Source: Clostridia bacterium (lineage in GTDB: Bacteria > Bacillota > Clostridia > Oscillospirales > Acutalibacteraceae). Taken from it: a DNA stretch of 64,000 nucleotides. Numbering within the stretch: the stretch's first letter is position 1; each line of letters opens with the position of its first letter. This document shows, piece by piece, positions 3,105 through 19,641 of this stretch. The position numbers were made by a program, and so were the translations under genes. The notes under the pieces were generated by a model. That model did not search any database. It saw nothing but the letters and a program-made list of their open reading frames with translations, and was not told the origin of the DNA. The stretch is from positions 1 to 64,000 of the forward strand of contig JAFVSK010000006.1 in NCBI GenBank assembly GCA_017503785.1. The letters run 5' to 3'.

Positions 3105-3110
3105 CGTTTT

Positions 3111-3352: not shown

Positions 3353-3357
3353 TTTTG

Positions 3358-3405: not shown

Positions 3406-3416
3406 ATAGGAGATAG

Positions 3417-3590: not shown

Positions 3591-3625
3591 TAGAGGTATT
3601 TCTTATATAACCCCGCTCTGTGTAC

Positions 3626-4293: not shown

Positions 4294-4322
4294 TTGACGC
4301 AAATGCTTATATAGAGTAAAAT
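4294..4322 (+). promoter_or_regulatory. Putative promoter of the exonuclease-like/helicase genes
   Basis: TTGACG (4294-4299), 17-nt spacer, TAAAAT (4317-4322). It lies about 30 nt before the start at 4354, with SD AGAGGTG. Confidence 0.6.
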
Positions 4323-4353
4323 TAGGTATAAACAATTGTGAGAGGTGCTTGCT

Positions 4354-5400
4354 ATGCGGTGTTTTAACTGTGGTTATGAAACGACTGAATATTTGTGTCC
4401 CGATTGTCGCACTGCGGAAATCTTAGACAAGGTATTTAGTCAGATTCGATTTTATAAAGCAGAAACTTGCGACAACCCCTATCTTGCTGAATATGTCTCC
4501 GGTCTCACAGAAAAATATGCCGAGAGAAATGCAATTCCCGCTATTCTTGACTGTTTTGATGTTGAAACCAATGAGTTTTATTATTGCCAATATTACAGAA
4601 TGCGTAAGGATGATCGGTTCGAGAGCGCTGCGCTTTCTTATTTGGCAACCCATTCATTGGATGAGACAAAAACCCAACGTGTTCTGTATGATTTGATCGA
4701 CAATTACATTCCCAACGATTTTGTGAAACCAAAAAAATGGTGCGAAATTGTTGCCGAAAAAGATGACTTGTGCTGTGAGTTGTATTTGGTGGCAGCAAAA
4801 TACTTTTCTATGATCGGCGAATACGATGTTTCTGACGCGATTGCAAAGAGAGCTATTTCTGCTTGCGGTTCAGGTAATGCGAAGCTTTTATTTTATTCGC
4901 TTGAAGGAATAGTTCCGAAGCTCTATAAACAGCAAGAAGATACGCAACGATATCGGACTAAAATACCATATTGGCCCAATACTGAAGATCGTCGCCGCGC
5001 TGTTGCAATGTTTTATGACGAAAGAGGAATTTCCTATCGGCGTATAGAAAGCAAGCCCGAGAAAACGCCTGAAAACGAATTTACGCCGCCCACCGCATGT
5101 TACGATGCACCAGATAGTTACTGTGCTTTTTGGTGTGCTGCTGCTTTTAGTGTAGCGCAATCTAAGCCAATTTACCAAATTGCTGCCGTAAAAGTTGAAA
5201 ACGGCAAACGAATGGATAGTTTTCAGGAATACATCCGTCCTTGGGATGGTGAGACCGGTCGCAAGTCGGCCGCTAAAGAAGCCGACGTCGATCTTACCGT
5301 TATTGACAGCGCAAGAGATGTGGATCAAGTGATGGTTGATTTTTTGATTTCGTTGGTGATGCGGTACTGTTATCAACCGATGCACTGGGTGGACAAATGA
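4354..5400 (+). CDS. Zinc-ribbon protein with exonuclease-like C-terminal domain (first part of a frameshifted gene)
   Basis: The protein begins with a CxxC...CxxC zinc ribbon (CFNCGY, CPDC), followed by a long helical region. From about residue 250 it has the outline of a DnaQ-like DEDD exonuclease fold (PIYQIAAVKVENGKRMDSFQEYIRP). The usual first catalytic D-x-E is replaced by FWCAAA, so activity is doubtful. At 5340-5346 the sequence is T TTT TTG, a slippery-type heptamer in frame. After it, this frame ends at 5400, while the -1 frame continues the family (FFDFVGDAVLSTDALGG) to 5618. Either programmed -1 frameshifting or an inactivating indel explains this. The ATG at 4354 is preferred over the GTG at 4345 because of the AGAGGTG spacing. 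A UvrD-like helicase follows. Confidence 0.6.
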   Translation: MRCFNCGYETTEYLCPDCRTAEILDKVFSQIRFYKAETCDNPYLAEYVSGLTEKYAERNAIPAILDCFDVETNEFYYCQYYRMRKDDRFESAALSYLATHSLDETKTQRVLYDLIDNYIPNDFVKPKKWCEIVAEKDDLCCELYLVAAKYFSMIGEYDVSDAIAKRAISACGSGNAKLLFYSLEGIVPKLYKQQEDTQRYRTKIPYWPNTEDRRRAVAMFYDERGISYRRIESKPEKTPENEFTPPTACYDAPDSYCAFWCAAAFSVAQSKPIYQIAAVKVENGKRMDSFQEYIRPWDGETGRKSAAKEADVDLTVIDSARDVDQVMVDFLISLVMRYCYQPMHWVDK

Positions 5401-5618
5401 AGCTGCTATGCCGCGCGGCACGGTATGCCGGCAGGAAGCGACTTTCCAACGCGTTGTTTGATCTTTTGGATTTTGCCACCGAAGCACACAGTCATTTTGA
5501 TATGAAAAACCGTGTTCAACTTTTGCAAACACTTGGCATTGACGAAGGAAAAGACTCACTTGGGAAAGCCGAAGCCAACATAACTCTTTATGAGGCTCTA
5601 AGAACTTATACGGCATAA
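5397..5618 (+). CDS. C-terminal part of the exonuclease-like gene (-1 frame)
   Basis: This frame opens before 5347 in the -1 register and gives FDFVGDAVLSTDALGGQM, then a helical stretch with LLDFATEAHSHFDMKNRVQ. That fits the C-terminal half of a DEDDh-type exonuclease domain continuing the preceding gene. The ATG at 5397 overlaps the upstream stop as ATGA, so coupled re-initiation as a 73-residue protein is also possible. On its own this piece lacks the start of the fold, so I read it as the second part of one protein made by frameshifting, or of a broken gene. Confidence 0.5.
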   Translation: MKLLCRAARYAGRKRLSNALFDLLDFATEAHSHFDMKNRVQLLQTLGIDEGKDSLGKAEANITLYEALRTYTA

Positions 5619-5665
5619 ACCGAGGAAACAACGCAAACTATTCCATTGATTCATAAGGGGTATTT

Positions 5666-7750
5666 ATGAAACTTACCGATGAACAATTGAAAGCCATTAA
5701 CCATATTGACGGTCATTTGCAAATTATCGCTTGTGCCGGTTCAGGGAAAACAACCGTTATCTCCAAGCGGATTGCGAATATTCTTAAACAAAAGCCAGAA
5801 ATCGACCCACATAATATCGTCGCGTTCACCTTTACCGAAAAAGCGGCAGTTTCTTTGAAAAGACATATTGAAGATGCAGTTGGAAGAACGTTGCCGACTA
5901 TGTATATCGGTACGATTCATGCTTTTTGCAAACACCTTCTCGATAAATACGCATTCGATTTTGCAGATTTCACGGTGCTTGACACGGTAAAAAATCATTT
6001 GTTTGTAACCCGGTATGCTGATAAGTGTGGTATGTCATTATTGAATTTGAAACCGTGTTTGCTGAACAATACGCTGTTTTGTGAATGCGTGGAGAAACTT
6101 ATTGACGATTATGAGAATCGCCCCCAGTGGACCGACACACAACGCGCGGTATTGGAACAATATACCAGATGTTTATATGAACATCAATATATTGACTTCT
6201 CTTTGTTGATATCCGAAGCATTACGGCAGATTTCCAAAAACGCTTCTGTACAGGCGTATTTGCAACAAATCAAATATCTGGTGGTGGATGAATATCAAGA
6301 TGTAAATGACCTACAAGAAAAGCTCGTTCGCAGTATTGCTCATTTTGGTGCGAACGTATGCGTGGTTGGCGATGACGACCAGACAATCTATCAATTCCGC
6401 GGAAGCGACGCCGACCATATGATAGCATTTTCTACCCTTTATCCAAACGTGACGAAAGTAAATTTAGGGGAAAACTTTCGCTGCCAAGCAGAAATTCTTG
6501 ACGTAGCAAGTAAGGTTATTGCTCACAATGAGCATCGTCTGCAAAAACAAATGAAAGCACACAAGACAAAATCTGATGGTGTTGTTCGAGCAGAGGGATA
6601 TGCTGACGATCAGCAGGAATTCGAAGCTATTTCAACAACCATCACAGAGTTGCACGAAAAAGGGTTGCCATATCGTGATATGGCAATTTTGGTTCGCAAA
6701 GGTAAGTTCATCCCACAAATCGCAAAAGCGTTGGAAGAGAAAGGCGTTCCGTATACGGCCGACAGTGCGGAATCGTTCTTTGAAAGTCCGTATTTTAATC
6801 GATTGGTTAGAACTTTACAAATACTGGTTGACATCAACAAGTCGGCGCTTTACGAGCAGTGGGAAGGCATAGCAAATCACACAAACTTTACAGCGGGATT
6901 TAGGTATTTGCGAAGTTGTTCCATCGGAGGGAATCACCGTCTAAGTGAAATTCTATGCAGATTTTGCGATGCCATTGGCTTTTTGGATAAGTCAGTTCCG
7001 GACCTATCTATACGGACAGAAGATTTGGAGGGTCTGTGCACTATCTTAAATGATTACGACGAGATATATGGCGATTATCAATTATCTGCGCGCATTACCG
7101 GTGTACTGAAATTTTTAGATACGCAAGTACGTTTGGAATATAAATATCACAATTTCCGAACAACTACAACCAATGAAGATGCCGTGCAGCTGATGACTGT
7201 ACACAAGTCAAAGGGGTTAGAATTTCACACCGTATTTTTGCCCTGCCTTAACAAACGTGAATTCCCAGTATTGGCAAAGGGCGGCAGAAAGTATTATCAT
7301 GTGTTAGGAAACCCGTTTAACGAAAACAAAGCCAAATACGAATCCGATATTGAAGATGAGCGCAAGTTGTTTTACGTAGCAGTTACCCGCGCAGAACACA
7401 ATCTGTACTTGAGTTACACACTCGCAAACGCATCTGTTTCAGAGTTTGTTGCAGAAGCAGCCGAATCCAGCTATTTGGGAATGGATCGGAACGACCTGCA
7501 TTATCAACCTCCCAGAGCGACAAAAAGAAGTGCAAAGACAGCCGATAAAGACTTTGAAGAATTATGTGCAAACTGGGAGCGGGAACAGCAAGAAAAAGCT
7601 GAATACTGGGAAGCGGTTCGATATGCGCGGGAAGCGCTTTATAATTACTACCATGTCGGCAATCATTTTTGTCCGGGTATGATTATGGAATATTCGGATA
7701 TTTGCAAGCAGGGGCCTGAGGCCATACTTGAAGCAGCATGTAGGCTATAA
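5666..7750 (+). CDS. UvrD/Rep-family superfamily 1 helicase
   Basis: This 694-residue SF1A helicase should translocate 3'-5' on single-stranded DNA using ATP. All main motifs are visible: Walker A AGSGKTT (24-30), motif Ia/Ib region FTEKAA, motif II VVDEYQD (about 206-212), motif III GDDDQTIYQFRG (235-246), motif V MTVHKSKGLEF, and motif VI VAVTRAEHNLYLSYT. It is shorter than AddA and lacks a nuclease domain. It starts after AAGGGG, 47 nt downstream of the zinc-ribbon/exonuclease-like gene, so the two are probably co-transcribed. In a mobile element such a pair suggests DNA processing or defence, but no named system is claimed. Confidence 0.88.
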   Translation: MKLTDEQLKAINHIDGHLQIIACAGSGKTTVISKRIANILKQKPEIDPHNIVAFTFTEKAAVSLKRHIEDAVGRTLPTMYIGTIHAFCKHLLDKYAFDFADFTVLDTVKNHLFVTRYADKCGMSLLNLKPCLLNNTLFCECVEKLIDDYENRPQWTDTQRAVLEQYTRCLYEHQYIDFSLLISEALRQISKNASVQAYLQQIKYLVVDEYQDVNDLQEKLVRSIAHFGANVCVVGDDDQTIYQFRGSDADHMIAFSTLYPNVTKVNLGENFRCQAEILDVASKVIAHNEHRLQKQMKAHKTKSDGVVRAEGYADDQQEFEAISTTITELHEKGLPYRDMAILVRKGKFIPQIAKALEEKGVPYTADSAESFFESPYFNRLVRTLQILVDINKSALYEQWEGIANHTNFTAGFRYLRSCSIGGNHRLSEILCRFCDAIGFLDKSVPDLSIRTEDLEGLCTILNDYDEIYGDYQLSARITGVLKFLDTQVRLEYKYHNFRTTTTNEDAVQLMTVHKSKGLEFHTVFLPCLNKREFPVLAKGGRKYYHVLGNPFNENKAKYESDIEDERKLFYVAVTRAEHNLYLSYTLANASVSEFVAEAAESSYLGMDRNDLHYQPPRATKRSAKTADKDFEELCANWEREQQEKAEYWEAVRYAREALYNYYHVGNHFCPGMIMEYSDICKQGPEAILEAACRL

Positions 7751-7975
7751 CACTGAACCTTTCGCTGCAAAGTTTCGATCGGATTCGTGATACAGTTTAT
7801 AGCACTATTTGATAAGATGCAGCATCGCTTGGCATGACAATAATCTTTATCGTAATCCAGCGAGTACCCAGCGAATGAATCTAGAATAGCGAGATCACTG
7901 AGATGCATGACCGCGTTAACTTGAGCGGCGTGATGTATTTTGCTAATTAAGAAAAACTTAGGAGCGTGACTATTT

Positions 7976-10027
7976 ATGAGCAAAATAAATTCGATGACCC
8001 TTGAACGTTCGTTTGAATACCGTATATTCCGTGGAAATGTAATAATTGAGAAATTTAAGGGCTACGAGACGGAAGTTGTCGTCCCTGCGACGCTGGGTGG
8101 GTATCCCGTGACCGTGATTGACCGCAATGCTTTTCATTTTTGTAAGAAACTTCGGTCGGTAACGATCCCAAACAGTGTGACCGAAATTAGAGATGGCGCT
8201 TTTTCCTGTTGCTTCGAGCTTACGTCGGTGACGATTCCCAATAGCGTAACCGAGATTGAACATGATGCTTTTGCCAGTTGCTTCAAACTTACATCGGTGA
8301 CGATTCCTGATGGCGTGACTTTAATCGGGTACAATATGTTTGAACGTTGCTTCAAACTTGCGTCGGTGACGATTCCCAATAGCGTAACCGAGATTGAACA
8401 TGATGCTTTTGCCGGTTGTACCGGGCTGACCTCGGTGACAATTCCTGATAGCGTGACCGAGATTGGAGACAGCGTTTTTGCCGGTTGTACCGGGCTGACC
8501 TCGGTGACAATTCCTGATAGCGTAACCAAGGTTGGAGACAGCGTTTTTGCCGGTTGTACCAGTCTTACATCAGTAACGATTCCCGATAGCATGATCAAAT
8601 TTGGAGACAATGTTTTCACCGGTTGTACCAAGCTTCAAGCAACGCCGATTGTTGCCTCGGCACCGCTGCTGACTATGGAGACACCTGGAGGTTTGTTCGA
8701 GTATCGCGTATTTCACGGAAAAGCGGAAATTACTGATTTTTCTATAGGTAATGAGACGAACATCATCATTCCTGCAATGCTAGGTGGATATCCTGTAACC
8801 TCAATTGGTGAATATGCGTTCCCCGAAGATTCAGGACTAACCTCGGTGACAATTCCCGATGGTGTAACCTCAATTGGGGTCGGTGCGTTTTCCGAGTGCG
8901 CAGAACTAACTTCGGTAACAATTCCGAACAGCGTGACCTCGATTGGGGAAGAGGCGTTTTCCGAGTGCACAAAACTGGCCTCGGTAACAATCCCCGACAG
9001 TGTGACCGAGATTGGAGACTGGGCTTTTGCACATTGTACTGGGCTGACCTCGGTCACGCTCCCCGATAGCGTGACCGAGATTGGGCGCTGGGCATTTTGC
9101 TGGTGCAAATCGCTTACATCGGTGACGATTCCAAGAGGTACAACCTCAATTGGGTCCTCGGCATTTGGAGAATGTGCGGGATTGACATCGATTACAGTGG
9201 CTAAAGGCAATACGGTATATCACAGCGACGGAAATTGCCTGATCGAAACCGCAAAGAAAACACTGATTGTGGGTTGTAGAACAAGCGTTATTCCATCAGA
9301 CGGCAGTGTAACCTCAATTGGGGATAATGCTTTTGAGGGTTGCGATGAGCTTATCTCGGTGACAATCCCGAGTGGTATAACCTCGATTGGGTGGAACGCG
9401 TTTTACAGTTGCAGCAGGCTTCGGTTGGTGAGTATTCCTGATAGTGTAACCCTGATTGGGAATAATGCGTTTTACAGTTGCAGCCAACTTCGGTCAGTGG
9501 CGATTCCCAACAGCGTGACCTCAATTGGGGACTGTGCGTTTTCCGGTTGCGCAAAACTAGCCTCGGTAACAATCCCCAGCAGTGTTATCTCAATTGGGAA
9601 AGGTGCATTTAATGATTGCACGGGATTGACATCAATTACGGTGGACGAACAAAACACCGTATATCACAGCGCTGGAAATTGCCTAATCAAAACCGCAAAA
9701 AAAACACTGGTTGCCGGTTGTAAGACGAGTATTATTCCGTCGGACGGCAGTGTAATCTTGATTGGCGAATATGCGTTTTATGGTTGCGAAGGACTTCAGT
9801 CGTTGACCATTCCCGATGGAGTAGTCTCAATTGAGAAGCGAGCATTCTCCTATTGTACAGATCTGACGTCGGTAACGTTCCCACACAGTCTGATTTCGAT
9901 TGGGTACCAGGCATTTGACGCCTGCAAAATGATAAAAACCGTGTATTTTGCAAGCAAAGAGCAGAAGACGATGCTAGGAGGGGATGAATACTTCGGTTCG
10001 AAGCATGTGAGGTATCTTGTCAAATAA
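7976..10027 (+). CDS. BspA-type leucine-rich repeat protein
   Basis: The 683-residue protein is built almost wholly of ~23-residue BspA-like LRR units of the type SVTIPDSVTEIGDSVFAGC. The 69-nt unit repeats at DNA level, for example at 8411 and 8480. Two short modules (FEYRIFRG near residue 14 and FEYRVFHG near 240, each followed by GGYPVT) start two halves. Residues TVYHSDGNCLIETAKKTL recur between blocks. BspA-like proteins are usually surface adhesins, but this one has no signal peptide, anchor or dockerin, so it may stay inside the cell. Its SD is AGGAG, 11 nt from the ATG. It may be surface-binding or regulatory cargo; the function is not known. Confidence 0.85.
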   Translation: MSKINSMTLERSFEYRIFRGNVIIEKFKGYETEVVVPATLGGYPVTVIDRNAFHFCKKLRSVTIPNSVTEIRDGAFSCCFELTSVTIPNSVTEIEHDAFASCFKLTSVTIPDGVTLIGYNMFERCFKLASVTIPNSVTEIEHDAFAGCTGLTSVTIPDSVTEIGDSVFAGCTGLTSVTIPDSVTKVGDSVFAGCTSLTSVTIPDSMIKFGDNVFTGCTKLQATPIVASAPLLTMETPGGLFEYRVFHGKAEITDFSIGNETNIIIPAMLGGYPVTSIGEYAFPEDSGLTSVTIPDGVTSIGVGAFSECAELTSVTIPNSVTSIGEEAFSECTKLASVTIPDSVTEIGDWAFAHCTGLTSVTLPDSVTEIGRWAFCWCKSLTSVTIPRGTTSIGSSAFGECAGLTSITVAKGNTVYHSDGNCLIETAKKTLIVGCRTSVIPSDGSVTSIGDNAFEGCDELISVTIPSGITSIGWNAFYSCSRLRLVSIPDSVTLIGNNAFYSCSQLRSVAIPNSVTSIGDCAFSGCAKLASVTIPSSVISIGKGAFNDCTGLTSITVDEQNTVYHSAGNCLIKTAKKTLVAGCKTSIIPSDGSVILIGEYAFYGCEGLQSLTIPDGVVSIEKRAFSYCTDLTSVTFPHSLISIGYQAFDACKMIKTVYFASKEQKTMLGGDEYFGSKHVRYLVK

Positions 10028-10244
10028 AGAAGAAGGTGGAACAATTGTGAGAAATCTGCTGTTCAACAGATTAGTTATGAGTTTTGAACACCAGGGTCCC
10101 CCCTGCGGCATTAGTTTGAAATTGCGAAAAACTTGTCTCCCTGTCTTCTTGCGACAAATTCGCAGGAGGTCGCATTTGCAACAAATTTTCATTATAATTG
10201 CTCGACAAGGAACAAAGAAAAATACTTCTGTGTTCCTGAGAAAC

Positions 10245-10277
10245 ACCCTCCCCGCCCGTTGTATGGGCAGGGAGGGT
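10245..10277. terminator. Convergent terminator
   Basis: A 13-position stem (ACCCTCCCCGCCC 10245-10257 / GGGCAGGGAGGGT 10265-10277, one mismatch) is followed by TTTTCTT rightward and a weaker T-rich tract leftward. It separates the BspA-like gene from the leftward operon. The rest of 10028-10285 holds nothing I can identify. Confidence 0.7.
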
Positions 10278-10285
10278 TTTCTTGG

Positions 10286-10879
10286 TTATTCGCCTGTTTC
10301 TTTCTTCTGCTCTTTCTCCTTCGGTTTCTTCTTCGGCTTGGTTTCGGGTTCGACCGCCACCGTAATCAGTTCCTTTACTTTCAAGGGTGAAAGGTTCCAC
10401 CGCCGCACCTGCGGAGACAAGGGATGTTGCAGTCTCCCCTCGCCTTCCTCGTTACACAAGCAGCACAACTTGGATTCGTAAGATTGTAGCGCACGGATCA
10501 CCTGTTCCTGTAAACGCACAAATGTCGTATTCTTGGCTTTACCGGTACCGGGAGCATACACCACCATCTCAGCTTCTTTGGCCGCTTCTACGATAGCTTT
10601 GATATTCTCCTCATCATCGTCACCATAACGCAGATTAAAGTCATTCAAGGTAGCCGAGAGGTTAAGGATCGCTACACTTCCATATCCCAACCTCGACGAA
10701 TTATTGATTACCAACTGTGTAGTGGTATCTAACTGGATCCCATCCGCACCGCCGGCCGCCAACATAACGATTGCCAGTTTCGGTTTGGTAGCATCCCACG
10801 TTTTTCTCAGTAGATACCGCTTTTCCCCATCATCGGAATATACGGCTTCCGTTCTCAGTTCCGTTACCTCGGTTTTCAT
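10286..10879 (-). CDS. DUF1643 domain protein
   Basis: This 197-residue protein matches the DUF1643 family found in clostridial plasmids and integrative elements. Recognisable blocks are TKPKLAIVMLAAGGADG, TTTQLVINNSSRLGYGSV, YAPGTGKAKNTTFVRLQ, LCCLCNEEGEGRLQHPLSP and the ending LSPLKVKEL. The tail after residue ~175 is lysine/glutamate-rich and low in complexity. The biochemical role of the family is unknown. It is the last gene of a leftward operon, and its ATG overlaps the upstream stop as ATGA. Confidence 0.8.
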   Translation of the reverse strand: MKTEVTELRTEAVYSDDGEKRYLLRKTWDATKPKLAIVMLAAGGADGIQLDTTTQLVINNSSRLGYGSVAILNLSATLNDFNLRYGDDDEENIKAIVEAAKEAEMVVYAPGTGKAKNTTFVRLQEQVIRALQSYESKLCCLCNEEGEGRLQHPLSPQVRRWNLSPLKVKELITVAVEPETKPKKKPKEKEQKKETGE

Positions 10880-11232
10880 TTCACATCATCCTCCAGTTCT
10901 TGTAATATAGCGATCGGCATTGCCGATTCAGGTGCGTACAGCAGTATAGAAAAGTCATTGTTTATCACATACAGAACAGATACCCATCCACTCGTTCCTA
11001 TACGGGTTACCCATTCACACGGATGGTTCTTCCCAATACTTACAATCGCCAAACCCGTATCCTCGGCGGTATCGGCAATCAAGGAATAGCCACCCGTGGT
11101 TAAGTAGTCTCTGTTTGCTCCATATTCGGCATCTAAGACGATAACGCCTTGTAACACCTCTACTATTACCCGTTCGGGTATTTGCCCGCTTAAACTTGAT
11201 ATTTCAGCTTCCGTGCCTACTCTGTAAAGCAT
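10876..11232 (-). CDS. Hypothetical mobile-element protein
   Basis: The 118-residue acidic protein starts MLYRVGTEAEI. It has a two-layer look with a beta-rich middle (VIVEVLQGVIVLDAEYG, SLIADTAEDTGLAIVSIG) and no membrane segment or known motif. The start at 11232 follows GAGGAGGAC, which lies inside the upstream gene's last codons. The longer reading from 11274 would overlap that gene. It is translationally coupled to DUF1643 (ATGA) and therefore likely expressed with it. Family not recognised. Confidence 0.65.
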   Translation of the reverse strand: MLYRVGTEAEISSLSGQIPERVIVEVLQGVIVLDAEYGANRDYLTTGGYSLIADTAEDTGLAIVSIGKNHPCEWVTRIGTSGWVSVLYVINNDFSILLYAPESAMPIAILQELEDDVK

Positions 11233-11236
11233 ATGT

Positions 11237-11638
11237 TTAGTCCTCCTCCATCGGCAGAGCAATAATCTCGCCATCCAGCATTACAAACATCTGCGGGTTC
11301 CGGTATAGTGTCAAATACGTTTGCTGTTGTTCCGGTGTCAGAGAAATAAAATCATCATCGCCAAGACCACAAATAAAGAACACGCCCGCTACCACATCGT
11401 AGATATGTCCATCTTCATCATACAGGGCACGGTTTAGTTCTAAACCGTTCAACTTACCTTCCTCGTTACAAACGATACCGACCTCGTCCTCAAAGGGATA
11501 GATCACTTGGATATATCCACCAACGAAGGCTTGCATTGCTTCTAAGGTGTTCTCAATTCGGATAACCCTTGCTTGTTTGCCGGGATAACAAGCGACCACC
11601 GTCATTTCCCGTTCTTTCGTTTTACTTGCCATTTTCAT
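11237..11638 (-). CDS. DUF3846 domain protein
   Basis: The 133-residue protein has the DUF3846 pattern: ENTLEAMQAFVGGYIQVIYPFED, VGIVCNEEGKLNGLELNRAL and DVVAGVFFICGLG. DUF3846 proteins are common accessory genes of clostridial mobile elements and phages; their role is unknown. I start at 11638 (MKMASK) because upstream residues lack support and GGGAT precedes it. It belongs to the leftward operon 12591-10286. Confidence 0.75.
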   Translation of the reverse strand: MKMASKTKEREMTVVACYPGKQARVIRIENTLEAMQAFVGGYIQVIYPFEDEVGIVCNEEGKLNGLELNRALYDEDGHIYDVVAGVFFICGLGDDDFISLTPEQQQTYLTLYRNPQMFVMLDGEIIALPMEED

Positions 11639-11725
11639 AACACATCCCAACAAAAAGTTAAGCGTATGGAGCATTACCGCTCCATACGCTTTCTAAGTTA
11701 GAATATATATTTGTAGTTTTCATTG

Positions 11726-12112
11726 TTACGAAAGGCCGTCAAGCTCACCAAAGAAAGCATCCAAAGCATCCTCATCGTTCCATAGTTCCGTTCCCCTGAA
11801 TCGCAAGCTATACCTTACAATCTCGGATTCTGTCAGCGAGCATAGCTCTCCGTTGCGAACCTTTACAACGTAGAAGGTACCTGCAATTATCTTCCTACCG
11901 ATCTTACGGTTTGGTTTCATCCCATAGAAAATACTATCGGGGACATATAGGACAGCGATATTCTTTTCCAATACAAGTGTATCTACCGAGCATTCGCATT
12001 CCGGCTGAATATCCAACGCATAACGCAGATATTCACTATCACAGCATAACTGCGTAATGCAAGGCTTACGTTCGGGTTCTATCATCAAAGCGGTTACCAG
12101 TTCCATCACCAC
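11726..12112 (-). CDS. Diverged DUF3846-like protein
   Basis: This 128-residue protein parallels the DUF3846 neighbour: IEPERKPCITQL, a central strand NIAVLYVPDSIFYGMKPNRKI, then GRKIIAGTFYVVKVRNGELCSLTE. It lacks the NEEGKL core motif. I read it as a diverged paralogue of the 11237-11638 gene. The stop of the upstream HTH gene is only 1-2 nt away, so the two are coupled. Function unknown. Confidence 0.6.
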   Translation of the reverse strand: MVMELVTALMIEPERKPCITQLCCDSEYLRYALDIQPECECSVDTLVLEKNIAVLYVPDSIFYGMKPNRKIGRKIIAGTFYVVKVRNGELCSLTESEIVRYSLRFRGTELWNDEDALDAFFGELDGLS

Positions 12113-12113
12113 C

Positions 12114-12317
12114 TTAAAAATCCAAAGGAAACAGTTCTCTATCAGGATCGGCCAATATCCTTTCTAACTGTGCGCGTTCCACATAGATACGATTTCCTAC
12201 ACGTTTTGGGGTTAAGTATAACGATACAAACTTACGAGCTTTGCGGCGGCTTATAGGCAGATATCTTTTCGTAATCTCACATATGTCCACCCATGCGGTA
12301 TTTTGTACTTGGTTCAT
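12114..12317 (-). CDS. Small helix-turn-helix protein (excisionase-like)
   Basis: The 67-residue protein has the shape of a MerR/excisionase-type winged helix: DICEITKRYLPISRRKARKFV, then LTPKRVGNRIYVERAQLERILA. It probably binds DNA, perhaps as the operon's own regulator or a recombination directionality factor. AGGAGG sits 6 nt before the ATG. The gene overlaps the end of the upstream gene by 41 nt in another frame. A second protein of this type is encoded at 14929 beside the integrase. Confidence 0.65.
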   Translation of the reverse strand: MNQVQNTAWVDICEITKRYLPISRRKARKFVSLYLTPKRVGNRIYVERAQLERILADPDRELFPLDF

Positions 12318-12591
12318 TCACTTCCTCCTTCGTTTCAATTTCCTCACCTGTAAACAGTTTAGGTATCTGTACACAGTATTGATTCAGCGTTGACCTACAG
12401 ATCATTCGACCGATACGGTTTGCCTCACCTTTGTTAGGCGTAGGTGTAACGGTATAACAATCCTTGTACACGACCACCTTAACATCTTTTCCTGTCATAA
12501 CCGATGTTACGGCTTCGGCAATCACCTTTTCATAGTCACGTAGGTCAACTGTTCTCCTTGCATCACTTGATGACAAGGAATAGCGTCTCAT
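12277..12591 (-). CDS. Hypothetical mobile-element protein, first gene of the leftward operon
   Basis: The 104-residue protein begins MRRYSLSSSDARRTVDLRDYEKVIAEAVTS-like (Ser/Arg-rich, then helical). Its middle strand is VKVVVYKDCYTVTPTPNKGEA and its C-terminal third is acidic. It has no membrane segment. It opens the 12591-10286 operon and diverges from the DUF927 gene. Family not recognised; the operon position is the main support. Confidence 0.55.
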   Translation of the reverse strand: MRRYSLSSSDARRTVDLRDYEKVIAEAVTSVMTGKDVKVVVYKDCYTVTPTPNKGEANRIGRMICRSTLNQYCVQIPKLFTGEEIETKEEVNEPSTKYRMGGHM

Positions 12592-12627
12592 AGCAATTCA
12601 CATCCTTTCGTGTCATTTTATAGGGTA

Positions 12628-12666
12628 AAGGAGCAAACAGGCCACGCTCGTGGCCGTTTGCTCCTT
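12628..12666. terminator. Long hairpin upstream of the leftward operon
   Basis: Arms AAGGAGCAAAC (12628-12638) / GTTTGCTCCTT (12656-12666) enclose GGCCACG / CGTGGCC. Only short T tracts follow, so it may be a terminator or attenuator, or a protein-binding or transfer-related hairpin. The upper part contains an AAGGAG that would be sequestered. Confidence 0.45.
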
Positions 12667-12790
12667 ATAAATTTGTTTGTTTTTTAGTATTCGAAAAAAA
12701 TTTTAAAAACGAGTTCGTCAAATTGCACAAAAGTTTCGGCAAGGACATCGAAGCCAAAACAAAACGCCCTCTGGGATGGCTAGGATAGCC

Positions 12791-12807
12791 TATCAAAGGG
12801 TATCAAA
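12791..12807. repeat. Short direct repeats in the divergent intergenic region
   Basis: TATCAAA occurs at 12791-12797 and 12801-12807, one helical turn apart, next to the small hairpin GGCTAGGATAGCC (12777-12789). This is a candidate binding site for an island-encoded protein. The rest of 12667-12918 shows nothing else. Confidence 0.3.
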
Positions 12808-12918
12808 ATCTTTGTAAATATTGCGAATAGCAATTTTGAAAAAGACGTGGTATTCTTCCTTTACCGCGCTAATGAAGCCGTAAAATTCACGGTCGGGAAG
12901 TGCGGAGAAAGGAGAAAA

Positions 12919-13032
12919 ATGATTACCCCGAAACGGCTAGCAAAGCCTTGGCAAAAGCGGCTCTCACGCGTTTTTGCCAGTCGATGGAGGCTGTTACGTG
13001 GTAACGGCAAGAACCCGACAACTGAATATTAA
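12919..13032 (+). CDS. Possible 37-residue basic peptide before the DUF927 gene
   Basis: The ATG at 12919 follows AAAGGAG at good spacing. It encodes an Arg/Lys/Trp-rich peptide beginning MITPKRLAKPWQKRLSRVF and ending at a TAA 17 nt before the DUF927 start. It could be a leader peptide or a small DNA-binding protein. There is no homology I recognise, and it may not be a gene. Confidence 0.3.
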   Translation: MITPKRLAKPWQKRLSRVFASRWRLLRGNGKNPTTEY

Positions 13033-13049
13033 AAGGAGGCATTTGTAAA

Positions 13050-14918
13050 ATGCAAAATTTCGATGTCAATGGGCTCTATTATGGAGTCTGGAAAACCGCA
13101 GGAAAAAAGGAACGTCAGTTCGTTCCACTTGGAAGAAGGCCAGAAGTGACCGATGTCCTTGAGAGCATCGAAGACGACACCGTTACTTTGAAGCTCGCAA
13201 CCGAGTTCTTCGGCCGTCGCAAGACCGCCTACCTCAGTTGTGCTGACCTCGTAGGTCTCAAAGCCGTTAATGCGCTTTCTGCGCAAGGTTTTGATGTCAC
13301 GATGGGCAAAGCGCAATACTTCCTCGAATCAATCCGTCGATATATGGATTGGTTAGAGAACGACGACACTCCCGTGACACCTTCGTACGAAAACCTTGGC
13401 TGGATTCGTGTTCCGAGTGAAAATCCCGATACCGGCGAGGACGAATATGCGCTATGCTATCGTGCTCACGAGTTGGTCGGTGCTGAGGACAAGGTGCGCT
13501 ATCTCGGTAACCTTGAGATCACTCCCTCGGGCGATTTTGAGATTTGGAAAAGAATGGTGATCGACGATGTCATCCCCCATCCTGCGATGCAATTTGGGCT
13601 CATAGCTTCCTTGTCAGCTGTTGTCATAGGTGCGCTTTCGCTTGTCATCCCCATCGAGAACCCGATCATTCACTTCTGGCTGAAATCAGGAGCAGGTAAG
13701 ACAACACTGGCATACCTAGGAACCAGCGTATACGGCAAGCCTTTCGAAGGCACAATGACTGTCATTGACGAGGATGGCCGTGCTGTTGATAAGCATAGCG
13801 TGATGGGCACATGGGGCGGTACAACCGCTTCGATGACAACTTCCTTGGCCGGTAATCGCGGTGTAGCCACGATCCTTAACGAGCTGGGTAAGAATATCGC
13901 CAAAGATCTAGATCGGCTCCTCTTCGATTTCTCTGAGGGATCTGATCGAAAAAGATTGAGCACCACATTAAAAACCCGCGTGAGCAAGAGTTACGCCACG
14001 ACATTCCTCAGCACCGGCGAATGCAGCTTGCTTGAGAAATGCCAAAATCGCTTAGAAGGTTTAGCCGTTCGCGTGATGGAGATTACCTCTCCTATAACGA
14101 AAGATGCCGCCCACGCCAATCGTGTAAAGCGTATCAGCAGCGAGAATTACGGCTTTGCCGCGCCGATGCTGGCTGAGTACATCATCAAAAACGGCGGTGC
14201 CGAGTATGTTCGCAATCGATATGATTACTGGCGCATAAACCTCCGCCCAAAATTTGGTGATACTCCAAATGTCGACCGCTTCATCGAGAAGTTTGCCGCA
14301 TTGTTCATGGCGACTGCAGAGATTGCTTCTAAAGCACTCAGTATTGGTTTCGATATGACCGGTTTGCTCAACTTCCTCAAAGCATACGATGCGAAGCAAG
14401 GTACCAATCGCAACACCTCGTTGGCGAGCTACGAGCTCCTTTTGGAACACTTCAAAAGGAAGGAACATAGCAATTTTTACATCCGGCACGATAAGAGTTT
14501 CGTATATGGTTCCGGCAGTACTACGGCAGTCGAAACACCCAAGTTTGAGTGCTACGGCCGCATCACAGAAAAAAGCGTTCCTCAACCGGATGGGCGCGTG
14601 CTTGTTCGCGAGTACGAGGTACATCCTTCGGTGGTAGAATCGTTGCTAAGAGCGAATAAATTCTATAGCACCAGTACTTGCGCCGATGCTTGGATTGCCG
14701 CCGGTCTGCTAGACGCTGATTCCGACCATCTGACCAAGAAGCGTAAGATTGGTAGTTCTAATGCTAACGGTCATCACGGACGTGTGTTTGTGTTCAAAGA
14801 GTTCGTAGATGGACTAGAGGCTACCGAGATAATCGATGCCATTGCTAAGAAAAACGCTAGGTTGCAAAAGCTTAGCAGCAGCAGTCAAAAAGCCGCCCTC
14901 CTTTCGGATGAAGAATGA
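13050..14918 (+). CDS. DUF927 domain ATPase (replication-helicase-like)
   Basis: This 622-residue protein is of the DUF927 family of P-loop ATPases encoded by phages, satellites and integrative elements, usually tied to element replication. Walker A SGAGKTT is at residues 213-219, followed by TMTVIDEDGRAVDKHSVMG, NELGKNI and LLFDFSEGSDRKRL, as in the family. The N-terminal 180 residues resemble the non-catalytic domain that precedes DUF927. The C-terminal third is probably a winged-helix or substrate-recognition domain. AAAGGAGG precedes the ATG. It is followed within 10 nt by the excisionase-like gene, then the integrase, forming a replication/recombination module. Confidence 0.8.
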   Translation: MQNFDVNGLYYGVWKTAGKKERQFVPLGRRPEVTDVLESIEDDTVTLKLATEFFGRRKTAYLSCADLVGLKAVNALSAQGFDVTMGKAQYFLESIRRYMDWLENDDTPVTPSYENLGWIRVPSENPDTGEDEYALCYRAHELVGAEDKVRYLGNLEITPSGDFEIWKRMVIDDVIPHPAMQFGLIASLSAVVIGALSLVIPIENPIIHFWLKSGAGKTTLAYLGTSVYGKPFEGTMTVIDEDGRAVDKHSVMGTWGGTTASMTTSLAGNRGVATILNELGKNIAKDLDRLLFDFSEGSDRKRLSTTLKTRVSKSYATTFLSTGECSLLEKCQNRLEGLAVRVMEITSPITKDAAHANRVKRISSENYGFAAPMLAEYIIKNGGAEYVRNRYDYWRINLRPKFGDTPNVDRFIEKFAALFMATAEIASKALSIGFDMTGLLNFLKAYDAKQGTNRNTSLASYELLLEHFKRKEHSNFYIRHDKSFVYGSGSTTAVETPKFECYGRITEKSVPQPDGRVLVREYEVHPSVVESLLRANKFYSTSTCADAWIAAGLLDADSDHLTKKRKIGSSNANGHHGRVFVFKEFVDGLEATEIIDAIAKKNARLQKLSSSSQKAALLSDEE

Positions 14919-14928
14919 GGTGTAGGAA

Positions 14929-15117
14929 ATGTCTATGTTCCTCACACCTCACGATATCGCTGAGATTCTGCATATCAGCTACGAATCGGCCCTTGCTTTC
15001 ATCAAGCAGTCCGGTATCGACTATATTCAGATCGGCAGGCAATATCGCGTGTCACAAGACGCGTTCGAAGCGTTCATCAAACGAAAAGGCCAATGGATCG
15101 TCTCACTTGACGGGTAA
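14929..15117 (+). CDS. Excisionase-family DNA-binding protein
   Basis: The 62-residue protein has the HTH_17/excisionase pattern: FLTPHDIAEILHISYESALAFI, then QIGRQYRVSQDAFEAFI. Such proteins bend DNA at attachment sites and steer the integrase towards excision. It sits 10 nt after the DUF927 gene (SD AGGTGTAGG) and 71 nt before the integrase, the usual position. Confidence 0.8.
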   Translation: MSMFLTPHDIAEILHISYESALAFIKQSGIDYIQIGRQYRVSQDAFEAFIKRKGQWIVSLDG

Positions 15118-15188
15118 CCGTGAAGTCCAGACAGATAGGTATATATAATAAATGTACAGGTCTTAAATGAAAGGAGAAATAAACTATC

Positions 15189-16340
15189 ATGGCTATGGGC
15201 AACATCCGCAAGAGAACTGACAGCAAGGGGCGTGTGAGCTATCAAATCTCGCTTGACCTCGGCAGAGATCCGCTAACCGGTGAGCGCATTCGTCGCTATA
15301 AAACCGTACACGGCTCTAAAAAGCAAGCAGAGGCAGAACTTCAGAAGATGCTGGCATCTCCCACCGAGAATCCCGATGCAATCAAGTCTTCCGTCCGTCT
15401 TAAAGATTGGTTGACAACTTGGCTCGGCGAATATCTACCGGACATCGCGCAGACAACCCGTGATAGCTACCGTGAGAAGATAACCAACCACATAAATCCG
15501 GCTTTAGGGAACATCCCGCTGAACCAGCTCGAGACCACGAGAATCCAGCGTTTTGTCAACGGGATGATCGCGCAAGGATTGTCACCAAAGACCATTCGTA
15601 ACACCTATAACAATCTTAACGCTGCCCTAAACAAGGCTGTTGTGCTGAAGATCTTAGCAAGCAATCCGTGTTTTGGCACAGTGTTACCGAAACTTCAACG
15701 CTATCAAGCGCAGGTATACGGTGTACCCGAAATTCAAAAGGCGTTAGCAGAAGCCAAAGGCGATACGAACCTCGTTCTCATCATTGTGCTTGGTGCAATG
15801 CTTGGCTTACGCCGTGGTGAGATGGCAGCACTCAGATGGGAGCATGTGGATTTCACGAACAAGAGCGTAACCATCTGTGAAAACCGTGTCCAATCCGTAA
15901 GCGGCATCATCAAGAAAGCTCCCAAGAGCAACGCCGGCAAACGCACCATTAGCATCGGTGACGAAGTCCTAGACATCTTACAGCAAGCGAAGAAGCTGTA
16001 CGATGACGATTGCAAGCGCCCGTGGTTCCACGACCTCGGCTACGTCCTTCACAAGGAAAAAGGCGACCCTTACGTGCCTGATTCCATCAGTCAGCTTTGG
16101 GACCGCTTCGTAGCGAGAAAAGGTCTTCCCCGCATTCGTCTTCACGATCTTCGTCACAGTAACGCCACGCTGATGATCGCTAACGGTATATCCGCCAAGA
16201 TCGTCCAGCACCGCCTCGGTCACGCCGATGTGAGTACCACGTTACAACGATATGTTCACGTACAACCCAGCATGGATGCAGCAGCATCCAGTACCCTTGA
16301 CTCGTTGCTTTTCCCGCAACAAACACCAGTGATTATTTGA
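15189..16340 (+). CDS. int: Tyrosine-type site-specific integrase
   Basis: This 383-residue phage/ICE-type integrase should recombine the island with tRNA-fMet. It has an N-terminal AP2-like arm-binding domain (about 5-55), a SAM-like core-binding domain (about 70-155), and a catalytic domain with R208 (GLRRGE), H319 and R322 (LHDLRH), H345 (GHAD) and nucleophile Y355 (QRYVH). All catalytic residues are present, so it is probably active. AAGGAG lies about 12 nt before the ATG. It is encoded 3.2 kb from the right att candidate. The retron/HEPN cargo lies between them, which is unusual because integrases normally abut their att site. Confidence 0.92.
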   Translation: MAMGNIRKRTDSKGRVSYQISLDLGRDPLTGERIRRYKTVHGSKKQAEAELQKMLASPTENPDAIKSSVRLKDWLTTWLGEYLPDIAQTTRDSYREKITNHINPALGNIPLNQLETTRIQRFVNGMIAQGLSPKTIRNTYNNLNAALNKAVVLKILASNPCFGTVLPKLQRYQAQVYGVPEIQKALAEAKGDTNLVLIIVLGAMLGLRRGEMAALRWEHVDFTNKSVTICENRVQSVSGIIKKAPKSNAGKRTISIGDEVLDILQQAKKLYDDDCKRPWFHDLGYVLHKEKGDPYVPDSISQLWDRFVARKGLPRIRLHDLRHSNATLMIANGISAKIVQHRLGHADVSTTLQRYVHVQPSMDAAASSTLDSLLFPQQTPVII

Positions 16341-16380
16341 CCTACTTTACCATCAAAGCCATATAAAATTGACTTCTATG

Positions 16381-16448
16381 AGTGCCGTTTACAGGCGGCA
16401 CTTTTTTTGACAGGCCACACGCTATTTGAAATGCGTGCGGCTATTTTT
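16381..16448 (+). terminator. Tandem terminators after the integrase
   Basis: The first hairpin is AGTGCCG (16381-16387) / CGGCACT (16396-16402) followed by T7. The second is GCCACACGC / GCGTGCGGC (about 16413-16441) followed by TATTTTTTT. The stretch 16449-16590 has no gene; it contains the 34-nt inverted repeat described separately. Confidence 0.7.
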
Positions 16449-16524
16449 TTACCCCTGTAACGGGGAAATCCCCTTGGCAAAAGGGGAACAAACGAAGCGG
16501 CTTTAGCGAACCAAGCTTCACCAC

Positions 16525-16558
16525 CACAGGCATACTTGCAGAAATCCCCCGATTCCCC
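16525..16558 (-). repeat. 34-nt repeat, right copy (inverted partner at 3626-3659)
   Basis: The reverse complement matches 3626-3659 at 30/34 positions. Together the copies enclose all island genes except the HEPN-like/retron cargo. Confidence 0.55.
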
Positions 16559-16590
16559 ACCTTAAGAGAGCAGTTAATAACTATACATGG

Positions 16591-16616
16591 TACGCCGTCG
16601 ATGTATCGACGGCGTA
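16591..16616. repeat. Palindrome with ACGCCGTCG arms, left of the HEPN/retron block
   Basis: Perfect 12-bp arms TACGCCGTCGAT / ATCGACGGCGTA with a 2-nt spacer. A related palindrome with the same ACGCCGTCG...CGACGGCGT core lies at 19392-19415, on the other side of the block. Confidence 0.6.
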
Positions 16617-16691
16617 TACTATTGATAAAAAAACAACTTTGTATTACAATGGGTTTGTAGAACAGAATGAAAAAGCAAAGGAGAAATAAGT

Positions 16692-17411
16692 GTGTGTAAT
16701 GGTATTTATCCAATGGAAGGGCGTTTCAATTTTTTAGCTGGTATGTATTGTGAGATGGCTATGGAAGCATATCATACCATTATAGAACAATATGATATTA
16801 TTTTAAGAAAAAACTCCTGGGTAGATTCCCAAGACGACCAAGACAAATTAGAAAAAGCACTAGTTTCGTGTGTTGTATTTTCTGCAATGAGTATAGAATC
16901 TTATCTAAACAATTACGCGGCAGCTTGCTTGGGTGACTCGGAATTCTATGACAATTTTGACAAGTTATCTGTTATAGGGAAACTTGAATTAATATCAAAA
17001 TTCATCCTGCATGCGCCATTGGACAAAAGTTGTGAAACATATCGCTGCTTAAAGGCGCTACTAAAGGAGCGAAATTTTTTCATACACAACAAAAGTTCTC
17101 GTTCCGAATACCAAGGAAGCACCAAAGAAGAAATAGAGGAAAAAAATAAGCACATAGAAGAATGTGCGTTGTATGAAGAACCGGAGGTAGATTGGATAGC
17201 TATAAAGGAATACTTGAAAGAAGCGGAAAATGCATTAAAAGCTGTTCATGGAATAGCAACCCACTTTGACAAATACGATAAAAGCGCTTACGCAGAGGTG
17301 CATTTGTTTTCACCAGATCATGTATATTTTCTTGCTCCCGGACAAACCAATTACCGCGAAAGAGCTTTTAAATTGTTGAAAATAGAAGTTCCGCAAACCC
17401 CTTTTATATAA
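16692..17411 (+). CDS. HEPN-like domain protein
   Basis: The 239-residue, mostly helical protein has the outline of a HEPN domain: AMSIESYLNNYAA, then KLELISKF, then ERNFFIHNKS. R127 and H132 form the R-x4-H motif of HEPN ribonucleases. Such proteins often act as RNases in toxin-antitoxin and abortive-infection systems. No antitoxin-like partner is adjacent. It starts with GTG after AAAGGAG and converges on the retron reverse transcriptase, sharing a terminator. It is AT-rich relative to the chromosome. Assignment is by motif only; a non-catalytic HEPN scaffold is also possible. Confidence 0.5.
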   Translation: MCNGIYPMEGRFNFLAGMYCEMAMEAYHTIIEQYDIILRKNSWVDSQDDQDKLEKALVSCVVFSAMSIESYLNNYAAACLGDSEFYDNFDKLSVIGKLELISKFILHAPLDKSCETYRCLKALLKERNFFIHNKSSRSEYQGSTKEEIEEKNKHIEECALYEEPEVDWIAIKEYLKEAENALKAVHGIATHFDKYDKSAYAEVHLFSPDHVYFLAPGQTNYRERAFKLLKIEVPQTPFI

Positions 17412-17417
17412 AAGTAA

Positions 17418-17448
17418 AGACAGCGAATGTTAATTACATTCGCTGTCT
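17418..17448. terminator. Bidirectional terminator between the HEPN-like and retron genes
   Basis: 12-bp arms AGACAGCGAATG (17418-17429) / CATTCGCTGTCT (17437-17448) with modest T tracts on both sides. Confidence 0.65.
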
Positions 17449-17453
17449 TCTTG

Positions 17454-19136
17454 TCATTTTACATCTTTACGCTTTTCGGCCATGTCCTCCAACACTAAAT
17501 GGATGGGAATAAACCCTTGGTTTCCGCTAACATCATCATCGTCAAGCGATTGAATACCACCTTTGATAATGCCAACCACCTCGAAACCGGTATTAAGCAC
17601 TAACCCTCCGCTGGCTCCGTGAACAATGCTACCACTAACGGTAAAGAAAGGCGCAGACATGAAAGTTTTTTCACTAGTAATTGCGCAATTTTGAATAAAC
17701 GGTGTATTGCCTATCTGATGATTCGGATAACCAATAATTGTCACATTATTGCCGACACGTAATTTCTTACTATCGCCAATTTTTAGTGCATACTCCCCTA
17801 AGTCTGTTAAAGGCGGGCTAAAAATCGCATAGTCAATTTCCCTGTTGTCTGCAACCCTGTTGAGAGAGAGTCCTATTACCATCGCAGGCTTCGAAGGATA
17901 ATCCATATGCGTATACCCATAAAAGAACTCCCCGCTCTCCACCACGTGATAACTTGTAATCAACCCAATATTTGGAACATAGAAAGCGCTACCTTGATAA
18001 AAACTCTCGCCTTGATTACACTCCAAGACAAAGGTATTCTTTTCCGCTATTGTTTCCAACCGGTTTAACAAAGAAATGTCAAGAATTTCCACTCCGACAA
18101 TCTCGTTCAGTTTTTGTGCAAAAGATAAATATGTCAGGCTCTCTGCGCCTTTAACATTTCGTATATACTCGATTTTCCCTTTTAGCACTGAAATAAACCA
18201 GTCTTCGACACTCCCCCTTGCTTCGTCACATTTATACGTTGCTAAGATAGACGGATTTTTGCAAAACCCCTTCTCAATATAAGTTTTTGCTGTTTGGTGC
18301 ACCCCGTCTCTCTGACAATGATCAAGAATGGCCCGTAAGTTGCGAATATAGCTCCTACGCAGATTTGGAAAGACATTTACTGTCAAACCGGTAACTTCTT
18401 GACGCTCAGTATTTCGTCTTACAGCTACTTTTTCAGGGTTAATCTGAAAACTGTGCTTATCAAAAATATGCTGCAGTTTTGACCCAATACAAAGCTTTTC
18501 GCCATCAAGGTAGACGACTTCCGGATCAAAAGACCTCTTAAAGGTAGATAAGGATATATCATCTGCATAACGTGTATACACACAATCTGTGGCTTTAGCA
18601 AATTTCATCATACTATTATCTAAAGGAACACAAATCATATTAGTGAGAACCGGCGAACACGGTGCTCCTTGGGGTAGCACGCCATTTACACATGCTATTT
18701 GTGCAATAGTTGTAGCCGCCTCTTCCCCAATACCATAAGGCGGGCTCGTTAACAATCCACGAACACGGCCAAAATGGATTTGTGTAAAGAAATCTTTCAA
18801 ATCAATGTTGAGAACAAGATGGCGCTTTGTATGCTGCCTAGCGTTATCAACAATACTTTTTCCCGGAATAAATCCGTATGCACATATTTTGGGCGCATAT
18901 ACACACGACAGTACATCTGCTAGTTTCCGTTGTATTTCCTTCCACTCTCTGCACGGCACCGAAATTTCACGAGGTTTACCATTTCGTTTTGTAATTGTAA
19001 AGGTCGTGTACAATCGTTCAGGACGACGCTTGAACAAAAAATAACGCAAGCTTCGTTCTTTTATTCCAAGTAGTTCCGCCACATCTTCACGCGTCTTCAA
19101 TTCTAAAAAGGCTTTTTTGACTTCATCTCGGTTCAT
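17454..19136 (-). CDS. Retron-type reverse transcriptase fused to a trypsin-like protease
   Basis: The N-terminal ~330 residues are a retron-type reverse transcriptase. Numbered from the GTG at 19142, visible features are the NAxxH motif (N100-H104), the catalytic YADD (192-195), APCSPVLTNM, and the VTG motif (250-252) typical of retron RTs. Residues ~365-545 form a trypsin-like serine protease domain with a complete triad: H399 (SYHV), D437 (EIDYAIF), S511 (GASGG). The likely product is an RT that makes multicopy single-stranded DNA and carries its own effector protease, as in defence retrons. I prefer the ATG at 19136 because GAGGTG is 5 nt upstream; the GTG start would overlap that SD. A retron-like ncRNA and promoter lie immediately upstream. 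Confidence 0.85.
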   Translation of the reverse strand: MNRDEVKKAFLELKTREDVAELLGIKERSLRYFLFKRRPERLYTTFTITKRNGKPREISVPCREWKEIQRKLADVLSCVYAPKICAYGFIPGKSIVDNARQHTKRHLVLNIDLKDFFTQIHFGRVRGLLTSPPYGIGEEAATTIAQIACVNGVLPQGAPCSPVLTNMICVPLDNSMMKFAKATDCVYTRYADDISLSTFKRSFDPEVVYLDGEKLCIGSKLQHIFDKHSFQINPEKVAVRRNTERQEVTGLTVNVFPNLRRSYIRNLRAILDHCQRDGVHQTAKTYIEKGFCKNPSILATYKCDEARGSVEDWFISVLKGKIEYIRNVKGAESLTYLSFAQKLNEIVGVEILDISLLNRLETIAEKNTFVLECNQGESFYQGSAFYVPNIGLITSYHVVESGEFFYGYTHMDYPSKPAMVIGLSLNRVADNREIDYAIFSPPLTDLGEYALKIGDSKKLRVGNNVTIIGYPNHQIGNTPFIQNCAITSEKTFMSAPFFTVSGSIVHGASGGLVLNTGFEVVGIIKGGIQSLDDDDVSGNQGFIPIHLVLEDMAEKRKDVK

Positions 19137-19152
19137 TTCCACACCTCATAAG

Positions 19153-19310
19153 GAAGAACCTAGGGGGACTCTACCTTCTGACACTGCACTTTATACGATA
19201 AAATCATAATCAGTAATAGGTTTACATAGGTCACATGCAGGAATATCCTCTACACGTTGAAATACGACGTTGCGGTAACGCTAACGAAAAACAATTCCCC
19301 TAGGTTCTTC
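19153..19310 (-). ncRNA. Retron msr-msd-like ncRNA
   Basis: A perfect 14-bp inverted repeat, GAAGAACCTAGGGG (minus strand, 19310-19297) and its complement at 19166-19153, frames ~158 nt directly before the RT gene. That is where retron a1/a2 repeats lie. Inside, 19286-19268 folds into a bulged stem (CGTT-A-GCG / CGCAACG) like an msr hairpin, and an AGGA/TCCT mini-hairpin follows. A promoter at 19317-19346 would start transcription at about 19310, exactly at the first repeat. I could not draw a convincing long msd stem by eye, so the internal fold is unproven. Confidence 0.72.
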
Positions 19311-19316
19311 GCTAAA

Positions 19317-19346
19317 ATTATAACAAAAATCTCTACAATATGTCAA
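19317..19346 (-). promoter_or_regulatory. Promoter of the retron ncRNA-RT unit
   Basis: On the minus strand: TTGACA (19346-19341), 18-nt spacer, TATAAT (19322-19317), both consensus. The expected start, about 7 nt downstream, coincides with the beginning of the inverted repeat at 19310. Confidence 0.75.
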
Positions 19347-19391
19347 TATACTCCATTAAAGAGTATGAAGTCATACATGGATGTTGAAACC

Positions 19392-19415
19392 ACGCCGTCG
19401 GCGCGCCGACGGCGT
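19392..19415. repeat. 24-bp perfect palindrome, right of the HEPN/retron block
   Basis: ACGCCGTCGGCG followed by CGCCGACGGCGT, with no spacer. It shares its ACGCCGTCG / CGACGGCGT arms with the palindrome at 16591-16616. Confidence 0.6.
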
Positions 19416-19528
19416 ACTATTATATCATCGTTTATTCCGTGCCGACATCGTGCCGACCAAATAGACCGGATTACATCCACTAAAACCGAATACTTACGAA
19501 TAGATCCCAATCGTAAAAATGGGCAAAA

Positions 19529-19560
19529 AAAGACTGCTAAACCGGTGTTTAGCAGTCTTT
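19529..19560 (-). terminator. Terminator of tRNA-fMet
   Basis: 14-bp stem (19529-19542 / 19547-19560) followed on the minus strand by TTTTTTT. It lies 6 nt beyond the tRNA CCA end. Confidence 0.8.
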
Positions 19561-19566
19561 CCTTGA

Positions 19567-19641
<75 letters not shown>

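Follow-up and report, generated by a model that had tools for sequence, protein, structure and literature searches.

The 64-kb stretch of DNA analyzed in this study (hereafter the window) carries what is probably a complete type XI retron, whose trypsin-like protease would be restrained by msDNA and freed on phage infection, and would then cut proteins and halt growth. Present in the sequence are a promoter-like site, a non-coding RNA (ncRNA) recognized by homology and by part of its structure, the motifs of a reverse transcriptase (RT) and of a protease, and a mobile-element context. Retron types were reportedly classified by Mestre et al. in 2020. Among the papers listed in a literature search, no title or abstract opening gave an account of the mechanism of a retron protease. 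Since PADLOC names the class and the available part of one retron study mentions retron RTs fused to proteases (PMC12405507), the locus represents a new and distant member of a class that is already known.

A single gene encodes the reverse transcriptase and the protease

The fusion gene, assigned with PADLOC and modelled with AlphaFold2, lies on the minus strand (17454..19142, counted from a GTG start); the ATG at 19136 is the likelier start, because GAGG (19147-19144) sits 7 nt ahead of it. As the original prediction had described, a Shine-Dalgarno sequence followed by one open reading frame with an RT and a trypsin fold can be read directly, and both Pfam domains exceed their cut-offs: RVT_1 at residues 50-255 (18378..18995, minus strand; E 3.9e-22) and Trypsin_2 at residues 384-525 (17568..17993, minus strand; E 1.8e-12). 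The protein matched the PADLOC family RT-Protease_XI almost from end to end (residues 12-554 of 562; E 1.2e-159), and the locus was therefore assigned to the type XI retrons. The next families, RT-TIR_XII as second best and RT-Toprim_I-C, matched the RT part only.

Homologues were drawn from 194 loci with tblastn matches, 61 of which were kept as type XI (bits > 190 and a match beyond residue 400); this set includes the window itself (L001) as well as near-copies such as L062/L203 and L132/L140, and a second copy of the window (L031) was dropped. Retron RTs carry motifs named NAxxH, YADD and VTG, and all three are found in the window protein together with His399, Asp437 and Ser511 (GTG numbering). 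Across the set, the motif positions noted earlier are kept in 57-61 of the 61 homologues (N100, H104, Y192, D194, D195, V250 and T251 in all 61, A193 in 59 and G252 in 58). His399 and Asp437 are likewise kept in 61/61 and Ser511 in 59/61, where the choice of homologues by a match past residue 400 favours His399; the Ser511 exceptions are L101, in which Pfam found no protease domain, and L065, whose sequence stops short of the serine. Judged from this alignment, the predicted His/Asp/Ser triad of the window protein is intact, as had been proposed. L065 is located on a Phaeobacter inhibens plasmid, where two IS3 transposase genes (both WP_260102314.1) flank the type XI gene; the second overlaps the gene end, and the encoded protein lacks the catalytic serine.

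An AlphaFold2 model of the protein, based on the window sequence and 34 relatives (alignment A5), reached a mean pLDDT of 91.8 and places three helices (306-331, 336-349 and 357-369) between RT and protease. In a Foldseek comparison with the PDB, retron Eco2 (Ec67; 9lm3, 9i2f) ranked first for the RT, and further matches included protease folds of the DegQ, DegS and DegP type; a sequence profile search of the PDB likewise gave Eco2 for the RT and matched the C-terminus to HtrA-type and Spl proteases. Eco2 (type I-C, RT-Toprim) is the closest solved RT by sequence and fold, and its effector is also C-terminal. In Eco2 this position is taken by an RNase-active Toprim domain, according to the accessible part of the Eco2 report (PMC12405507), whereas a protease occupies it here. 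Type XII retrons differ in the same way, their effector being a TIR domain, while the trees place the RTs of relatives with a fused TIR close to type XI.

The model also bears on a different role for the protease, namely that it cleaves its own chain and thereby releases or destroys the RT complex, regulating the msDNA level instead of killing. While the three linker helices could expose a cleavage site, the fused effectors of neighbouring types are Toprim and TIR domains, and Toprim is toxic in Eco2 as far as the available text goes (PMC12405507). We consider such self-cleavage improbable.

Relatives and phylogeny of the type XI protein

Single-sequence scans of the genome_contigs and viral_contigs collections returned no relatives; an alignment of the window protein with five plasmid-borne homologues (A1) then recovered relatives in both, and the best 80 of at least 542 (genome_contigs) and the best 80 of 314 (viral_contigs) were kept. 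Type XI retrons (PADLOC RT-Protease_XI, PDLC02959/PDLC02960) likewise consist of a single gene with the RT followed by a trypsin-like protease, and most relatives are about 29-38% identical to the window protein. The closest among those kept (best 80 of at least 542) are L069 from an Oscillospiraceae MAG (58%) and L070 from a Lachnoclostridium MAG (47%), which group with the window in a supported clade (100/98, 100/99). RT-Protease_XI matched nearly end to end in seven relatives (L069, L070, L074, L111, L113, L114 and L165) and partially in L101.

Within 200 genomes of the window's family, a protein search gave matches in 61; among the matches listed, those other than the window's own were RT-only or protease-only. 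Counting PADLOC matches as a census of type XI was discarded: 393 of 398 phylum genomes and 12 of 14 controls match, and since the RT and protease domains that make up the model are common ones, the tally is uninformative.

In the RT trees, rows labelled XI are scattered among other RTs, requiring at least 9 changes over 101 rows and 6 changes over 38 rows. An AU test did not reject a single type XI clade (p 0.29), and of seven rows labelled as other that were scanned for an effector, three carry TIR and four no recognized domain. Because one clade is not rejected and the scan covered these seven rows, we do not claim a repeated origin of the protease fusion. The protease-fused RTs of L111, L113 and L074 lie outside the main proteobacterial type XI clades, with L113 and L074 adjoining rows not labelled XI; effector exchange is possible in these three, going by the trees. 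Four RTs near types XI and XII (L082, L097, L127 and L139) have a long C-terminal part outside any Pfam family and could represent further fused effectors.

An inverted repeat frames a non-coding RNA ahead of the gene

Upstream of the RT, the a1 arm GAAGAACCTAGGGG (19297..19310) and the a2 arm CCCCTAGGTTCTTC (19153..19166), both on the minus strand, form the perfect 14-bp inverted repeat described in the original prediction; it is read directly from the sequence and spans 158 nt. Among perfect inverted repeats of at least 12 bp with arms at most 250 nt apart, a span above 100 nt occurs at two sites of the window, 3271-3405 and a1/a2, and the longest repeat in 20 mononucleotide shuffles of the retron upstream region was 9 bp.

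In order to evaluate the enclosed RNA (19153..19310, minus strand) independently of the window, a covariance model was trained on six other Bacillota type XI loci (L069, L070, L072, L063, L125 and L143). This held-out model matched 19308-19155 with 64.7 bits (E 7e-11, rough calibration) as its sole match in 64 kb up to E 10, and over 200 genomes of the window's family, under stricter filters, it found this locus only. It gave zero matches at E up to 1 in 53 more distant type XI loci, so conservation of the ncRNA at the sequence level is seen in seven Bacillota loci only. Among 13 loci not kept as type XI, few of which were scanned for their effector, nothing fell below E 0.18, and the two weak matches of the model (E 0.18 and 0.47) belong to loci of this kind. 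Rfam contains no family matching the ncRNA, with one chance-level match at E 4.6; PADLOC includes retron msr-msd models, as stated in the accessible part of its description (PMC9252829).

Beyond the seven Bacillota loci, the case for the ncRNA rests on pairing and position. The letters of the repeat vary among relatives, and pairing at that place persists in most of them, which answers the question of whether the repeat is conserved upstream of related RT genes. A perfect stem of at least 8 bp within the span limits was found upstream in 48/61 type XI loci (window included). An imperfect-stem score of at least 28 was reached by 40 of the 61 upstream regions (the window being one of them), compared with 3.6% of 1159 dinucleotide shuffles and 8/160 other places in the same loci; 38/61 regions outscore all their 19 shuffles and 23/61 do not. 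In a seven-row alignment, which includes the window and, being fitted to the model, leans towards the structure, 9 of 18 pairs show two-sided changes. Four of five measures lie above nearly all shuffles, and the count of further pair types is not exceptional (reached by 56/500 shuffles). The suggestion that the RNA is an unusual variant because it is short did not hold up, as the best-repeat span is below 158 nt in 49/60 relatives; in some of these, a perfect repeat other than a1/a2 may be the longest.

With a1 and a2 left out, the RNA folds only slightly more stably than shuffles, at z -1.5 in the window and at a mean of -0.58 across 48 loci. Within it, msr stem 1 (19268..19286, minus strand) was identified by covariation in 15 relatives and by the predicted fold: two-sided changes affect 6/6 pairs, and the covariation score is 0.69 versus 0.30 for shuffles and a maximum of 0.21 for slid positions of the helix, with the helix itself predicted on the same alignment. 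Together with the held-out match, this covariation agrees with the ncRNA proposed earlier. The fold further contains a probable second msr stem (19233..19257, minus strand; -9.2 kcal/mol for the stretch) and a probable msd hairpin (19168..19221, minus strand; -11.7 kcal/mol for the stretch). The msd stem had been described as not obvious; an msd-like hairpin is predicted at 19221-19168, though it is weak and bulged. Adjoining a2, a AAGGTAGAGT box (19168..19177, minus strand) corresponds to AAGGTAGAAT or AGAGGTAGAAT in six Bacillota relatives, and AAGAGAAAA occurs near a2 in six of the nine other rows of alignment A3. In alignments A3 and A4, none of the Gs between a1 and stem 1 is invariant; by analogy, G19297 at the edge of a1 is a candidate for the branching guanosine, which in retrons primes through a 2'-5' linkage. 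In the Ec67 RNA, a1, a short linker and the msr stem follow one another, and the window RNA has the same order.

Promoter and transcription unit

On the minus strand, the predicted consensus sigma-70 promoter is present at 19317..19346 (TTGACA-18-TATAAT, 12/12 match, with an 18-nt spacer and TG ahead of the -10 box), 6 nt before a1. A promoter match of at least 8/12 was found in 39 of 51 loci examined, near-copies being included among the 39; in 19/39 the -10 box ends 5-9 nt ahead of a1, compared with 0-3 of 15-38 at six displaced control positions, and in 20/39 the best match is placed elsewhere. This spacing suggests that transcription starts at a1 across much of the family, and in the window as well the transcript would start there. 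At the 3' end of the retron, a terminator-like hairpin was predicted (17416..17450, minus strand) that would serve both the retron and a convergent gene. A perfect GC-rich palindrome of 24 bp with 12-bp arms (19392-19415) precedes the -35 box of the retron promoter by about 45 bp and is located between this promoter and tRNA-Met.

Could the inverted repeat be a product of chance or a regulatory hairpin, with no retron RNA involved? The region as a whole contains 7 promoter-like sites against 5.9 expected, although only that at 19346-19317 reaches 12/12, and perfect repeats of at least 12 bp are no rarity in the window when the span is short. The held-out model match speaks strongly against this explanation, and the compensatory changes and the promoter spacing in relatives also count against it; we regard it as extremely improbable. 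Based on three window-independent lines of sequence evidence (held-out model, kept pairing and promoter spacing), we conclude that the ncRNA at 19153-19310 is real. The PADLOC match and the covariation of stem 1 add to these lines, and the original identification of the locus as a retron with an a1/a2-framed RNA and a fused protease is borne out.

The retron as cargo of an element integrated at tRNA-Met

As a best estimate from repeat comparison, the retron unit is cargo of a 16.2-kb element (3358..19566) integrated at tRNA-Met, its limits being likewise best estimates set by 48-bp att repeats. The 3' part of tRNA-Met (19567..19641, minus strand), taken from tRNA annotation and repeat comparison, forms the att site: 3358-3405 and 19567-19614 are identical at 47/48 positions. 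In a congener (G023), the sequence leading into tRNA-Met is collinear with window positions 3107-3405 at 73% identity, and the locus can be read as a site that lacks the 16.2 kb between 3358 and 19566. The element encodes a tyrosine integrase (15189..16340, plus strand; Pfam Phage_integrase E 5.7e-23, PHROG 1), a DUF927/Cch-like primase-helicase, a UvrD-like helicase, and DUF3846 and DUF1643 proteins, with the retron placed at its tRNA-proximal end. A PHROGs scan of ten open reading frames named no capsid or tail family. The UvrD helicase of the element matches GajB models.

Shorter att-like copies are found at 3111 and 164, and about 38 bases adjoining tRNA-Met in G023 resemble window positions 125-163 (94% over 125-195); this site has therefore probably undergone earlier insertions or duplications. 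A 172-bp repeat (3109-3280, recurring at 162-333 with 98% identity) brackets one alpha-L-rhamnosidase gene (467-3028), which gives the impression that a smaller unit was likewise inserted or duplicated at the att site.

The convergent gene at 16692-17411 (plus strand), which shares the terminator hairpin, has no match in Pfam, PADLOC or PHROGs. Its product contains an RNFFIH (Rx4H) motif that we take to resemble HEPN domains, and the gene may be another defence or toxin determinant of the element.

Its location on an integrated element, and an ncRNA confined to its own genome among 200 of the family, would also be expected if the unit were an inactive relic or served the mobile element only, for example in its maintenance. 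The promoter, ncRNA, RT motifs, triad and terminator all look intact, and we give little credence to this possibility compared with an active retron.

A different view of the effector is that the protease is not itself the killer and activates another genome-encoded protein by specific cleavage. Trypsin-like proteases accompany the defence enzymes of the Hachiman, AVAST, Lamassu and DRT nuclease-protease pairs, as in the retron described here, and act by activating cleavage in such systems, according to the available part of the source (PMC12799240). In these pairs, again within the part accessible, the nuclease gene lies immediately upstream and the protease is N-terminal (PMC12799240), whereas the window protease is C-terminal on a retron RT and adjoins no MBL nuclease; no MBL domain was detected in the 13 other window proteins scanned. 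A search for a shared partner gene (open reading frames of at least 80 aa in the fetched flanks, E 1e-8) yielded no neighbour family common to more than 3/61 type XI loci, and this candidate was dropped. The different layout and the lack of a partner in these scans make activation of a partner nuclease less likely, and we rate partner activation as rather unlikely overall. The neighbour result fits a self-contained unit of one gene and its RNA.

Proposed mechanism and implications

In the mechanism that we favour, the promoter at 19346-19317 would drive a transcript from a1 that carries the ncRNA ahead of the RT-protease message. The RT would copy the msd part of the ncRNA, very likely yielding msDNA, and the resulting msDNA-RNA hybrid would stay bound to the RT domain. 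Bound in this way, the complex would keep the C-terminal trypsin-like protease inactive, as proposed for the Toprim domain of Eco2. The accessible part of the Eco2 study describes a self-inhibited assembly built by msDNA, which is proposed to occlude the site of the fused Toprim domain, and implicates the phage protein DenB as trigger (PMC12405507). By analogy, and in line with the restraint suggested in the original prediction, phage infection would damage or titrate the msDNA and free the protease, which would cut proteins so that growth stops before phage release and the infection is aborted. Restraint, release, killing and an anti-phage function are inferred from this comparison.

On a broader level, we tentatively put forward, as an idea with somewhat less than even prospects, that the protease is gated by a DNA-RNA hybrid: loss of msDNA would unleash a trypsin-like protease to kill the infected cell, in a nucleic-acid-sensed analogue of death by caspase or granzyme, and such proteases may have been joined to retron RTs more than once. 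With its intact triad, consensus promoter and evolutionarily supported ncRNA, the locus opens the substrate and the trigger of a retron protease to direct testing.
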